64,000 nucleotides of DNA. Origin: Leuconostoc kimchii IMSNU 11154 (GTDB taxonomy: Bacteria > Bacillota > Bacilli > Lactobacillales > Lactobacillaceae). The position numbers and the translations under genes are program-made. The first letter of the stretch is position 1, and each line of letters starts with the position of its first letter. Shown here piece by piece: positions 36,544 through 40,137 of this stretch. The notes below the pieces were generated by a model. That model saw nothing but the letters and a program-made list of their open reading frames with translations. It was not told the origin of the DNA and did not search any database. Location of the stretch: assembly GCF_000092505.1 (NCBI RefSeq), contig NC_014136.1, positions 1,820,501 through 1,884,500 of the forward strand, given 5' to 3'.

Positions 36544-37584
36544 TCAATCAAGTGGCACATCAACGGCCCAGTTTTCTGGTCCTTTTTCATCACCATATTG
36601 AATGGCAGTTAGGCGATCGTACAATTTTTGTGTCCAAGGACCAACTTCTGTCTCTGAGTAAAAGACGTGCTTGTTACCGTGATGTGTAATTGAACCAACG
36701 GGGGAAATGACTGCTGCAGTCCCCATAGCACCTGCCTCTGTGAATTGGTCCAAGTCGTTGATTGAAATGGTTGTTTCCTCAGCTTCCAGTCCCAATTCTT
36801 TTGCGACCTCAAGCAATGAGTACTTTGTTACTGATGGCAAAATTGAAGGTGACTTTGGTGTCAAAAAGCGACCGTCTTTTGTGATACCAAAGAAGTTTGC
36901 AGAACCTAGCTCTTCAATATTTTCATGCAGACGAGGATCGAGGTAAACGACATCAGAATACCCAGCAGCATGCGCTTCGTCACCAGCTAGCATTGATGCA
37001 CCGTAGTTGCCGCCAGCTTTTGCGGCGCCAGTGCCACCATGGGCTGCACGATCATATTCATTTGTAACATAGGCTGTTGGTGTTAAACCGCCTTTATAAT
37101 ACGCACCAACAGGTGTTGCATAAACTTCAAAAACATAATTATCAGCCGGATGAACACCAACAACTGGACCACCACCAAATTCGAATGGTCGAAGATAAAG
37201 TGTTGCACCAGTACCGTATGGTGGAATGAAATCTTTATTCGCTTTAGTTACTTCTTTTAAAGCGCGTAAAAATAATTCTTCAGGGACTGGGGCCATCATA
37301 AGCCGCGCAGCTGAATTTTGTAATCTTTTTGCGTTACGGTCAGGGCGAAACAAATTAGCACCACCATCTTGGCGTCTGTATACTTTTAAACCTTCAAAAA
37401 TATTTTGGCCATAATGAAGGCCGGTTGCCGCTTCATTCACTGGTAAATTAGAATCCGTTTCCAGAGCGCCGTCACTCCACTTGCCATCTTTGAAATATGC
37501 ACGAAATCTGTAGGGTAAATCATGATATTCAAATCCCAGTTCGGACCAATTAAAATCTTGAGGTTGTGCTTTTTTATGTGACAT
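36544..37584 (-). CDS. ilvE: Branched-chain amino acid aminotransferase
   Basis: 346 residues of fold-type IV PLP enzyme. GLHYGQNIFEGLKVYRR, FRPDRNAKRL, GTGAAKAGGNYGASM (PLP Lys in AAKAGGNY) and TEAGAMGTAAVISPVG match class IV BCAT. It interconverts Leu, Ile and Val with their 2-keto acids. It lies 58 bases downstream of the EIIC-like membrane-protein gene with no terminator between, so both are probably expressed from the branched-chain-rich attenuated leader at 38780-39081. Confidence 0.95.
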   Translation of the reverse strand: MSHKKAQPQDFNWSELGFEYHDLPYRFRAYFKDGKWSDGALETDSNLPVNEAATGLHYGQNIFEGLKVYRRQDGGANLFRPDRNAKRLQNSAARLMMAPVPEELFLRALKEVTKANKDFIPPYGTGATLYLRPFEFGGGPVVGVHPADNYVFEVYATPVGAYYKGGLTPTAYVTNEYDRAAHGGTGAAKAGGNYGASMLAGDEAHAAGYSDVVYLDPRLHENIEELGSANFFGITKDGRFLTPKSPSILPSVTKYSLLEVAKELGLEAEETTISINDLDQFTEAGAMGTAAVISPVGSITHHGNKHVFYSETEVGPWTQKLYDRLTAIQYGDEKGPENWAVDVPLD

Positions 37585-37642: not shown

Positions 37643-38779
37643 TTAAACAACATCTAAATGTAAATCATTTTTACGTGTTTTTCCTGATCTTTTTAGAGCG
37701 TAGTACATAGCCATACTAGCAATAACCGGCATCACAATACCAAATATAGCGACTAATATTAATGCACGAGGATCAGATGAAGCTAATGCTATTGGTGCAA
37801 TAAAGCCATTTAAACCCAGTCCTGCAATGGCAAATGGCACTTTCAAATGGAATATCCCGACAGCGACCATAGCTGATATGCCAGCTATGAACGCAGGTCC
37901 GAACATAAGGAGTGGACTTTTTAATAAATTAGGAAATTGTACTTTTGGTGTGACAATTGTTTGGGCAATATTAGCTCCTATATTATTTTGTGACCAACCC
38001 ATAGCTGTATAAACTACAAATCCTGCGGTTGTACCGATTAAAGCGGCGCCTCCTGAAAGTGGGTCTAACATAACTGCAATCGCAAGAGCGGCAGACGAAG
38101 CTGGCGTCATTAGGAATAGGAACCAAACAACAGAAACAACGAACGAACCAAAGAAAGGATTAACACTCATTGTTGAAGCTAATGATTCTGATACCCAGTT
38201 TAAAAATGGTGTGGTCACTGCCGCGGTGCCTAAACCAAAAAATGTACCGGAAAGAACGGCGCCTAGTGGTACGAGCATCATATCTAAAGGCGTCTTGCCA
38301 GTCAACCAATTACCAACAAGTACGGCCAGTACAGCTGCTAAAACGGCAGAGATTGGCTGACCAGAAGTCAACACGATTGATCCAGCAGCTTGATCTGCTA
38401 CCCAGCCTGTTGCAGTATGTGTTTGTGGGCTAATAGCTGAGGTAAAGTAGACCGCGTTGGAACCGACCGTCGCAGAAATCAGAGCAGCTCCGGTTGTTAA
38501 AATATTAGCCCGCATCATGATAGCGATACCAACGCCAAGAGCAGGTGCCAATAGCTTTTGACCCATTAATCCAGCCTGGATGAGTGGGGTATAATCAAGT
38601 AAATTACCGATTGAAGACATCAGTAGGCCCATACCAAGTACCGCGAGAATAGCATTTGAAATACCGGTTGAGATATCAAATACGACCTCGCGAACAGTTG
38701 GTTTTGATTGGCTTTTGTGACTAAACGGCGTTTTGTCGTGTTTAGCTGCCGTGAGTGGCGACGTTGATGTTTGATCCAT
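37643..38779 (-). CDS. PF13303-type (PTS EIIC-like) multi-spanning membrane protein, probably linked to branched-chain amino acids
   Basis: 378 residues. ATG 38779 has AGGAGG upstream; the frame is open further but lacks an RBS. After a polar N-terminus there are eight to ten hydrophobic segments with small-residue-rich motifs (ISTGISNAILAVLGMGLLMS, IGTTAGFVVYTAMGWSQNNIG). These resemble the family named PTS_EIIC_2, which lacks known EIIA/EIIB partners. No PTS Cys/His domain is attached. Its location behind an Ile/Val leader peptide and in front of ilvE argues for transport of branched-chain amino or keto acids rather than sugar. The family call is from memory; the substrate is inferred. Confidence 0.75.
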   Translation of the reverse strand: MDQTSTSPLTAAKHDKTPFSHKSQSKPTVREVVFDISTGISNAILAVLGMGLLMSSIGNLLDYTPLIQAGLMGQKLLAPALGVGIAIMMRANILTTGAALISATVGSNAVYFTSAISPQTHTATGWVADQAAGSIVLTSGQPISAVLAAVLAVLVGNWLTGKTPLDMMLVPLGAVLSGTFFGLGTAAVTTPFLNWVSESLASTMSVNPFFGSFVVSVVWFLFLMTPASSAALAIAVMLDPLSGGAALIGTTAGFVVYTAMGWSQNNIGANIAQTIVTPKVQFPNLLKSPLLMFGPAFIAGISAMVAVGIFHLKVPFAIAGLGLNGFIAPIALASSDPRALILVAIFGIVMPVIASMAMYYALKRSGKTRKNDLHLDVV

Positions 38780-38990
38780 TATAAATCCTCCTAAATATTG
38801 TTCTGCTAGTGATAAAACACTGTTTTTCAACCAACGACTGAACTTGTGCTTGCAACATAACCTAAAAAACAAAAGAAAAAGAGACCCTAGCAATAAACTA
38901 GCGCCTCTTAAGAATGTTGAAAAAGTCAACATCTTCACGCCAGTCGAGAATTTGCTTCTCGACCGGTAGACAAAACAGACCAGCGAGAAG
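38780..38990 (-). promoter_or_regulatory. Transcription attenuator of the EIIC-like/ilvE operon
   Basis: Reading the minus strand after the leader peptide: segment 1 CTTCTCG, segment 2 CCGGTCGAGAAG, segment 3 TTCTCGACTGG. Segment 2 can pair either with 1 or, through 11 bp, with 3, which is the mutually exclusive logic of amino-acid attenuators. A further hairpin (AAGATGTTGA/TCAACATTCTT) and a terminator (38880-38908) follow, then the RBS of the membrane-protein gene. Confidence 0.7.
38870..38908 (-). terminator. Attenuator terminator
   Basis: On the minus strand AGAGGCGCTAG, 7-base loop, CTAGGGTCTCT then a T-rich tract, about 90 bases before the membrane-protein ATG. Confidence 0.75.
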
Positions 38991-39056
38991 TCAGATAATA
39001 ATGACGACGTTGATCGTAATAAGATTTGTGAAGTTGTATGAGCTTAACATGAACAT
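38991..39056 (-). CDS. Branched-chain-rich leader peptide (21 residues)
   Basis: Predicted peptide MFMLSSYNFTNLITINVVII plus a final I: nine of 21 residues are Leu, Ile or Val, and the last five codons before the stop are Val-Val-Ile-Ile-Ile. AGGAAA is about 10 bases upstream. The stop codon directly borders segment 1 of the attenuator. Ribosome stalling on the Val/Ile run would block segment 1 and alter folding downstream, as in E. coli ilv leaders. Confidence 0.75.
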   Translation of the reverse strand: MFMLSSYNFTNLITINVVIII

Positions 39057-39073
39057 TATATAAGTTTCCTTTT

Positions 39074-39111
39074 ATTTAATAATCTATATTATGGCATTTA
39101 GATTATTAAAT
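39074..39111. promoter_or_regulatory. Palindromic operator in the leader promoter
   Basis: 13-bp perfect arms (ATTTAATAATCTA and complement) with a 12-base spacer, covering the start site, the -10 and the spacer of the minus-strand promoter. It is a probable repressor or activator site; it does not match the CodY consensus. Confidence 0.65.
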
Positions 39112-39116
39112 GTCAA
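39088..39116 (-). promoter_or_regulatory. Promoter of the leader/EIIC-like/ilvE operon
   Basis: On the minus strand a perfect -35 TTGACA (39111-39116), 17-base spacer and -10 CATAAT (39088-39093); start predicted near 39081. Confidence 0.8.
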
Positions 39117-39195
39117 TGTTTTAATTTAAATATCATTATATGTTAAACATCTTATGGTTTGATATAATGGTAGAAAATGAATTAGAGGGTTAGTT

Positions 39196-40137
39196 ATGTT
39201 ACTTTTGGCAGTGAAAGCGATTACTGAATCAAACCGTTCTTTTTTAGCAAAATATGGTGTAACGGTTGTAACGCCTGATACCGTTACGGCAGAGCAGATA
39301 CCTGAAATTGTTATTAGTTACGCATGGGATGATGTGATTGGCAAACAAATATTAGCCAATCCGGATTCAAAATTAAAGTGGGTTCAAACACAGTCTGCTG
39401 GTGTAGACTATTTACCATTAAAGTCACTCAAAAATTTGGGTGTTGTCGTGACTAATGCTAGCGGGTTAAAAGCTGTGCCGATTGCGCAAACGGTTCTAAG
39501 TTATATTCTATATTTTGCGCGAGGTTTAAATGTCTACGCTTCGAGGACGCACTGGGAACCATTTTCGAATCAATATTTAGTCAGCGAGTTGCCCGTTCTA
39601 GTGTTTGGAACCGGACGTATTGGACAGCAAATTGCTGCCAACATTAAAGCTTTTGGTGGTACTGTTTATGGTGTGAATACAACTGGGCGCCCAGTTGTAG
39701 GCTTTGATGAAGTATATAGTATAACTAATTATCAAAAAGCATTGGCGAAATCGCGTGTCGTGGTGGATGGCTTACCTGGGACACCGAGGACCGAAAACTT
39801 TTTTAATGCCCGCTTTTTCGAACAGGTCAACCAATTATTTTTGTTCATCAATATCGGTCGAGGGACAACGCTGAATCAAGATGATTTACTAGCGGCGATT
39901 GATGATTCACGAGTAACCTACGCTGCACTGGATGTGACGACACCAGAACCATTACCTAAAAATCATCCGCTTTTTGAACGTTGGCAAGTGTTGTTAACAC
40001 AACACACTAGTTGGGGTGAGCATGTTAATGCAGGTCGAACTGGTGGTTTGTTTAGCATTCTTGAAAAAAACCTACCATCGTTTGTAGCAGATGGCACCAT
40101 CAAGCAAAACGTTGTGGATTTAGACCATGGCTATTAA
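39196..40137 (+). CDS. D-isomer-specific 2-hydroxyacid dehydrogenase family protein
   Basis: 313 residues. NAD-binding GTGRIGQQIA (Rossmann loop), with the catalytic triad visible as Arg in NIGRGTTLNQDDL, Glu in TTPEPLPKNHPLF and His in TQHTSWG. It reduces a 2-keto acid to a D-2-hydroxy acid, substrate unknown. It is divergent from the branched-chain leader operon. A hydroxyisocaproate-type activity on branched keto acids is an attractive but unproven idea. An extended -10 TGATATAAT lies at 39160-39168. Confidence 0.88.
   Translation: MLLLAVKAITESNRSFLAKYGVTVVTPDTVTAEQIPEIVISYAWDDVIGKQILANPDSKLKWVQTQSAGVDYLPLKSLKNLGVVVTNASGLKAVPIAQTVLSYILYFARGLNVYASRTHWEPFSNQYLVSELPVLVFGTGRIGQQIAANIKAFGGTVYGVNTTGRPVVGFDEVYSITNYQKALAKSRVVVDGLPGTPRTENFFNARFFEQVNQLFLFINIGRGTTLNQDDLLAAIDDSRVTYAALDVTTPEPLPKNHPLFERWQVLLTQHTSWGEHVNAGRTGGLFSILEKNLPSFVADGTIKQNVVDLDHGY

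Follow-up and report, generated by a model that had tools for sequence, protein, structure and literature searches.

A probable isoleucine/valine leader-peptide attenuator upstream of a PF13303 membrane protein and ilvE in Leuconostoc kimchii and its relatives

Introduction

What does a membrane protein named after the sugar phosphotransferase system (PTS) do behind a leader peptide that ends in valine (Val) and isoleucine (Ile) codons? The question is raised by a minus-strand locus in a 64-kb stretch of the genome of Leuconostoc kimchii IMSNU 11154 (contig NC_014136.1, positions 1,820,501–1,884,500; assembly of 6 contigs, 2,101,787 bases), hereafter the window, in which a gene for a PF13303 (PTS_EIIC_2) protein and ilvE follow a short open reading frame (ORF) and a terminator. 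Databases that name proteins of this PF13303 clade mostly call them sugar PTS subunits, and among the literature matches listed no title dealt with PF13303 as an amino-acid carrier or with this leader. The evidence assembled here points with high confidence to ribosome-mediated attenuation, in which the supply of charged tRNA-Ile and tRNA-Val governs an operon made up of the PF13303 carrier and IlvE. Positions are those of the window unless another locus is named.

Results

Architecture of the leader and operon

The promoter (39088–39116, minus strand) matches the consensus at 11 of 12 positions, with TTGACA at 39116–39111, a 17-nt spacer, CATAAT at 39093–39088 and a TG before the −10 box. Just downstream of a Shine-Dalgarno sequence (AAGGAAA) lies a 21-codon ORF (38991–39056, minus strand) encoding MFMLSSYNFTNLITINVVIII, which is conserved in relatives and whose last five codons are V-V-I-I-I. 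Approximately 110 nt containing several complementary stretches lie between the leader ORF and the end of the terminator, a hairpin at 38909–38879 (−16.5 kcal/mol, one G/G mismatch) followed by a T-rich run. The PF13303 membrane protein (378 aa; 37643–38779, minus strand, ATG at 38779) scores 214.9 bits against a Pfam cut-off of 28.9, and 58 bases separate the end of its gene at 37643 from the ATG of the branched-chain aminotransferase gene ilvE at 37584 (36544–37584, minus strand; NF009897, 456.6 bits, cut-off 307; TIGR01123, 400.2 bits, cut-off 250.05). A preliminary description of the locus had reported the perfect TTGACA, the 21-codon peptide with its Val-Val-Ile-Ile-Ile end, and the succession of terminator, EIIC-like protein and ilvE, and all of these were found in place.

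The same description recognized two mutually exclusive hairpins. The competing stems are indeed present, one of 12 pairs with a bulge (1:2) and one of 11 pairs (2:3) that have segment 2 in common, but this understated the leader RNA, which is best read as a ladder of six segments, numbered 0 to 5 and all on the minus strand. Segment 0 (39002–39015) consists of two stretches within the ORF, before and at the start of the Val/Ile codons, and its partners are segment 1 and the region of the stop codon. Segment 1 (38978–38990) begins right after the stop codon and can pair with segment 0 (OFF) or segment 2 (ON), segment 2 (38955–38967) with segment 1 (ON) or 3 (OFF), and segment 3 (38937–38950) with segment 2 (OFF) or, as the antiterminator, with segment 4 (ON). 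Segment 4 (38897–38909) is the 5' arm of the terminator, paired with segment 3 (ON) or 5 (OFF), and segment 5 (38864–38891) holds the 3' arm and the T-rich run. The OFF fold is thus 0:1 + 2:3 + 4:5 and the ON fold 1:2 + 3:4.

Conservation of the leader

Short ORFs ending in Ile, Leu (leucine) or Val (I/L/V) codons do occur, such that a chance ORF before an ordinary terminator had to be considered. A loose scan of both strands of the 64 kb, looking for 14–32-codon ORFs that begin with ATG and end in five I/L/V codons, returned eight starts, some nested and two belonging to this leader, and only this leader combined a Shine-Dalgarno sequence with a terminator. Twenty first-order Markov sequences gave a mean of 0.8 such starts, none (0/20) with both features. 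The preliminary description had set the conservation of the peptide in relatives beforehand as a refuting test, and among 80 named loci from public genomes carrying PF13303 relatives, 32 have a leader by a filter of at least six I/L/V in the last ten codons plus a Shine-Dalgarno sequence. By the same filter 47 loci have none (among them L081, with 265 bases of upstream sequence), and one (L036, 185 bases) could not be judged. Chance was rejected on the strength of these scans and the 32 loci; with peptide, promoter and two covarying folds conserved across several genera, it is scarcely credible.

A second set, of 30 loci, was drawn by best match from the window genome and 150 further genomes of the family and overlaps the named set in genomes; 16 loci have at least seven I/L/V among their last ten codons and the other 14 at most five. 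The leader carriers are Leuconostoc, Convivina, Fructobacillus, Weissella, Periweissella, Fructilactobacillus lindneri, Oenococcus oeni and two metagenome-assembled genomes, one locus of which (L114) does not enter the later counts. Among named proteins, the nearest to the window's PF13303 protein is that of Leuconostoc rapi (93% identity). Overall, 37 Ile/Val leaders were retained (31 named, the window and five others), 35 of them non-identical and used in the folding and pairing tests. All 37 have a terminator-like hairpin and 33 carry two adjacent Ile among the final six residues; the remaining four, all from Oenococcus, mix I, L and V. Promoter matches of at least 9/12 within 90 bases upstream were found for 49 of 50 leaders. 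Within the fetched stretches, ilvE is present at 27 of the 80 loci, directly downstream in 13 (approximately 50–85 bases) and upstream in 11. As judged by eye, the leaderless lactobacillar loci (L021–L034 and others) often share a 5' stretch resembling TTCTCAT...TTTTAATCAT right after the −10 box.

T-boxes are common in the genome (27 matches at E up to 0.001, nine over the gathering score), and one T-box leader (L123, ~6400–6150, minus strand) stands just upstream of the genome's other brnQ, a setting in which a T-box or metabolite riboswitch might be expected here as well. A search of Rfam over 38700–39250 at E up to 5 gave a single match, to a CRISPR repeat and far below its gathering score, such that no T-box or other regulatory RNA family was recognized in this leader. 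Neither RF00230, the T-box family, nor any other regulatory RNA family matched the leaders of the 40 loci searched at the gathering score, and the T-boxes at L016, L056, L060 and L073 sit away from the leaders. Control by a T-box or riboswitch is accordingly highly improbable.

Competing folds

Covariation was assessed in 17 Leuconostoc and Convivina leaders. In the OFF fold 96.4% of cells are paired and 11 of 31 pairs show changes on both sides; in the ON fold the values are 91.2% and 5 of 20, and the covariation score was reached by none of 500 shuffles for either fold. Segment 0 contributes nine pairs in two helices (1 and 2) that are 100% paired in the 17 sequences, though with only one pair varying covariation says little on 0:1. 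When the arms of each leader were compared with foreign arms, its own arms beat the median foreign arm in 35/35 leaders for 1:2, 2:3 and 4:5, while pairs not expected to form scored 14–20 of 35 in this comparison.

The switch was examined by hiding 0, 3, 6, 9 or 12 bases directly after the stop codon and folding the RNA as far as the 5' arm of the terminator. As more bases were hidden, 1:2 formed in 20, 10, 4, 1 and 0 of 35 leaders and 2:3 in 15, 26, 31, 35 and 35. The window RNA switched sharply, forming 1:2 (12 bp) and 3:4 (9 bp) with nothing hidden after the stop and 2:3 (11 bp) without 3:4 once three bases were hidden. When the RNA ended at segment 2 and a single base past the stop codon was hidden, 1:2 formed in 35/35.

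A ribosome at a stop codon covers a dozen bases after it. When Ile and Val are plentiful, the ribosome would reach the stop codon and cover segment 1, leaving segment 2 to pair with segment 3 and the 4:5 terminator to form (OFF); after ribosome release, or without translation, 0:1 pairing could give the same OFF state. A ribosome starved at Val-Val-Ile-Ile-Ile would instead cover segment 0 and leave segment 1 free, such that 1:2 and then 3:4 would form and transcription would read through (ON). We infer ribosome stalling, this direction of the switch and induction at low Ile/Val.

A leucine version of the leader

The window genome encodes a PF13303 paralogue (45% identical) with its own leader, MTKTYFKQMNNTRLLLNLLLI, complete with promoter and terminator. 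This leucine-rich leader (LLLNLLLI; L120:6949–7215, C6 at ~430.9–431.2 kb in the genome, minus strand) was identified by reading, and downstream of the paralogue lie genes for a Peripla_BP_6 binding protein and a BPD_transp_2 permease of the branched-chain type (livJ/livH-type genes). In the clade of this paralogue a Leu leader is present at 18 of 18 fetched loci (L124–L141), 14 by the filter and four (L135, L139, L140 and L141) by reading. Leader codons follow the gene clade, Ile/Val in one and Leu in the other. In the 13 Leu leaders analysed as RNA, the terminator, 2:3 and 0:1 are each present in 12/13 full folds. Liv-type genes follow the Leu-clade gene in L124 and L125; the other loci differ, with some genes amino-acid-permease-like by eye.

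Two genera (L134–L137; L139 and L140) carry a second PF13303 copy 284–316 bases downstream of the first, the first with a Leu leader and the second with an Ile leader (QIIIISLQTN, QVIIIVSLLNN, QVIIIISLLNN, AVIISSPS). In a tree built from 43 proteins, the 12 with Leu leaders (support 92/99) are sister to three Ile-leader duplicates (98/83) in a joint clade (100/100), and the 16 Ile/Val-leader proteins lie apart and do not form one clade. The tree places the Ile copies beside and not inside the Leu group and so does not favour a switch from Leu to Ile within the tandem copies over the reverse; the same tree indicates that related leaders of duplicated genes differ in codons. Leader RNAs were compared by global alignment against 200 shuffles. 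The Leu and Ile leaders of a tandem pair gave z scores of 7.0 (L134), 7.1 (L139) and 2.0 (L137), and the Ile/Val and Leu leaders within one species gave 4.8, 4.8, 3.0, 2.1 (the window genome), 1.8, 1.7 and 1.6 in seven species. From these values a common origin of the two leader types appears likely, though not demonstrated everywhere.

Leaders before brnQ

A covariance model (R1, built from alignment A4) matched 33 of 151 genomes at E up to 0.01. Fourteen matches outside intact PF13303 leaders were read; seven have a leader peptide (L183–L187, L192 and L204) and seven are not leader-like (L188–L191, L193, L205 and L206). R1 misses the Leu leader of the window genome even at E up to 10. In the same genome it finds an Ile-rich leader, MTTSVNTTTQIIISIIIIS (L120:10384–10325), within a putative attenuator (L120:10384–10226, C6 at ~434.2–434.4 kb, minus strand) before a 263-codon gene and brnQ. 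The 263-codon gene is weakly like 2-oxo-4-pentenoate hydratases, below every cut-off, and the brnQ product matches PF05525 and exceeds the TIGR00796 cut-off. In Oenococcus (g29) and one further genus (g19), leaders directly precede Branch_AA_trans proteins in 5/5 cases (L184–L187 and L192), three of three tested proteins exceeding the TIGR00796 cut-off. Sequence comparison thus gives the parts of the attenuator, their conservation, the covariation of both folds and the Leu and brnQ versions.

Two R1 matches lack an intact gene. In L183, one of the seven above, an Ile/Val leader is retained before a 98-codon remnant of a PF13303 gene. A match beyond the fourteen, in genome G054 (L209:7875, plus strand), is an orphan leader, MNKTMSVTNQLILSVIVIIT, with a terminator; no gene follows it on the plus strand, and ilvC is nearby on the other.

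Weighing the attenuator and its direction

Several observations tell against attenuation as set out above, and they fall into three groups. The first concerns distribution: lactobacillar orthologues show no leader in either the 30-locus or the 80-locus set, three Lacticaseibacillus loci have ilvE approximately 170–200 bases downstream and yet no leader, and the leader is not tied to auxotrophy. The window genome has no ilvC match and ilvB relatives only below cut-off, and is therefore not expected to make Ile/Val by the usual route. The leader as a mark of Ile/Val auxotrophy was not upheld, as ilvC is over cut-off in the genomes G054, G046 and G121, and G054 keeps the leader. The second group concerns the controls. 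A simple consensus scan missed the window's terminator, whose hairpin carries the mismatch; the number of further pair types in the OFF fold was matched by 415 of 500 shuffles; and the drop in pairing to 28.7–53.5% when partners were slid by 1–3 columns is flattered, because the window sequence itself supplied the structure.

The third group concerns individual pairings. Stems 1:2, 2:3 and 4:5 are strong, and 0:1 and 3:4 are the weaker links, weak to moderate: own arms beat foreign ones in only 24/35 Ile/Val and 7/13 Leu leaders for 0:1, and in only 21/35 and 5/13 for 3:4, for which the duplex test had first given 19/35 with long 2:3 hairpins swallowing segment 3 before it was reframed. Nor is 3:4 cleanly lost in distant leaders when segment 1 is hidden, forming with at least 4 bp in 25, 18, 14, 17 and 18 of 35 at 0, 3, 6, 9 and 12 hidden bases. 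The minimum-energy fold of the Leu leaders keeps 2:3 with segment 1 free in 11 of 13, and their ON state would therefore need to be kinetic. Lastly, in RNA reaching to segment 2 without a ribosome, 1:2 beats 0:1 in 19/35 Ile/Val leaders, the window included, and in 13/13 Leu leaders.

This last result bears on the opposite direction of control, in which the finished peptide would leave 1:2 free, ample Ile/Val would cause read-through and the operon would export or degrade a surplus. Fast release of the ribosome would let 1:2 form at the stage of segments 0–2. A ribosome far into the Ile run could also partly cover segment 1, whose first base directly follows the stop codon, and three hidden bases suffice for OFF in the window. 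Against this, a ribosome at the stop codon would itself cover segment 1 and give OFF, and the full-length RNA folded free of ribosomes favours 0:1 and 2:3 (32/35 each) with the terminator (35/35). Similar leaders at brnQ and at livJ/livH-type genes also fit induction by hunger. The reverse logic is accordingly quite improbable, and induction of the carrier and IlvE at low Ile/Val is preferred.

The PF13303 protein and its neighbours

The predicted fold of the PF13303 protein is that of EIIC proteins of the PTS glucose superfamily (glucose IIC, MalT and ChbC). The prediction came from an alignment of 88 sequences (pLDDT, the predicted local distance difference test, of 87), a 9-sequence version being useless (pLDDT 45), and a sequence profile searched against PDB found nothing credible (best E 0.19). 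Lys279 is the only charged residue invariant in the 88 aligned proteins.

The genome has four PF13303 genes, each beside genes for an aminotransferase, a 2-hydroxyacid dehydrogenase or a branched-chain transporter. The examined neighbours comprise ilvE, two D-2-hydroxyacid dehydrogenases, livJ/livH-type genes, UPRTase, brnQ, a class I/II aminotransferase and one protein with no Pfam match. Consistent with the claim in the preliminary description that PTS partners are missing, no PTS IIA or IIB was present among these neighbours of the four genes, a search that did not extend to the rest of the genome. Lys279, as the sole invariant charged residue, together with the aminotransferase, dehydrogenase and transporter neighbours, would fit a carboxylate substrate.

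A real attenuator could also control a sugar carrier or a regulator (a PfoR label exists) that responds to amino-acid supply. This is unlikely, as the examined neighbours lack IIA and IIB, the leader codons follow the gene clade and the same type of leader precedes brnQ.

Other features lie around the operon and its paralogues. An A-T-rich hairpin 3' of ilvE (~36490–36450, minus strand) is terminator-like by eye and unlisted by the consensus scan, and a tRNA gene (RF00005) follows it at ~36408–36336 (minus strand). The D-2-hydroxyacid dehydrogenase genes adjoin two of the four PF13303 genes, at 39196–40137 (plus strand) of the window and at L122:4675–5682 (plus strand).

Discussion

Regulation, the codons of the paralogue's leader and the neighbouring genes support the prediction that this PF13303 clade is in the service of branched-chain amino acids or of acids close to them. 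The preliminary description had assigned the family member to branched-chain amino or keto acids and not to sugar. The first half of that assignment gains from the Leu-leader paralogue at Liv-type genes, the brnQ leaders and the lack of ilvC; the second is a matter of context alone, since the protein has the PTS EIIC fold. From this context we infer substrate and direction of transport, the carrier most likely importing Val and Ile or the corresponding 2-oxo acids, compounds that IlvE would convert into one another. More tentatively, the carriers of this clade may have left the PTS while keeping the EIIC fold, and may import branched-chain amino acids or the 2-oxo/2-hydroxy acids that IlvE converts, with leader codons reporting the substrate of each paralogue and the leaders of duplicates having come to differ as Leu versus Ile.

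If true, the EIIC fold would work outside the sugar PTS, and leader codons could predict substrates in the manner of T-box specifiers. The Ile/Val and Leu leaders provide a specific and cheaply testable claim for a clade named as sugar PTS, and they suggest that uptake in these fermentation bacteria, with T-boxes common elsewhere in the genome, is under an attenuation regulon.

Among known systems, the his, ilv and leu leaders of enterobacteria form, as is proposed here, an alternating ladder of hairpins that ends in a terminator, with control codons in the leader ORF; they differ in sequence and in controlling biosynthesis genes, whereas a carrier and a transaminase are controlled here. The PTS glucose-superfamily EIIC proteins (glucose IIC, MalT and ChbC) share the predicted fold, and are set apart from the present protein by the amino-acid-type regulation of the latter and by the absence of a PTS partner among the neighbours examined. 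In the T-box specifier work a regulatory codon likewise predicts the substrate of a transporter, although a T-box reads the tRNA directly and Leuconostoc is absent from that text. The histidine leader peptides before hisS paralogues of bacilli offer a Firmicute case in which a leader peptide replaces a T-box; they concern histidine and synthetase paralogues, and the paper's text does not name Leuconostoc (PMC2965389).

Rli60, the ilv-leu attenuator of Listeria monocytogenes, shares a Firmicute host, a short peptide, a terminator opposed to an antiterminator and a branched-chain response, and its classical attenuation logic is supported by mutants; it controls biosynthesis genes, has a 13-aa peptide and forms its terminator from segments 3 + 4, in contrast to the six-segment ladder proposed here (PMC5864092). 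The ilvD leader of Staphylococcus aureus is an Ile/Leu-rich leader peptide with a terminator, again in a Firmicute, for which attenuation has been proposed with mutant support; its peptide is 26 aa long, is proposed to sense mainly leucine and controls ilv-leu biosynthesis (PMC5794164). Set beside these systems, the mechanism itself is a known one, and its targets and the codon differences between leaders are new.
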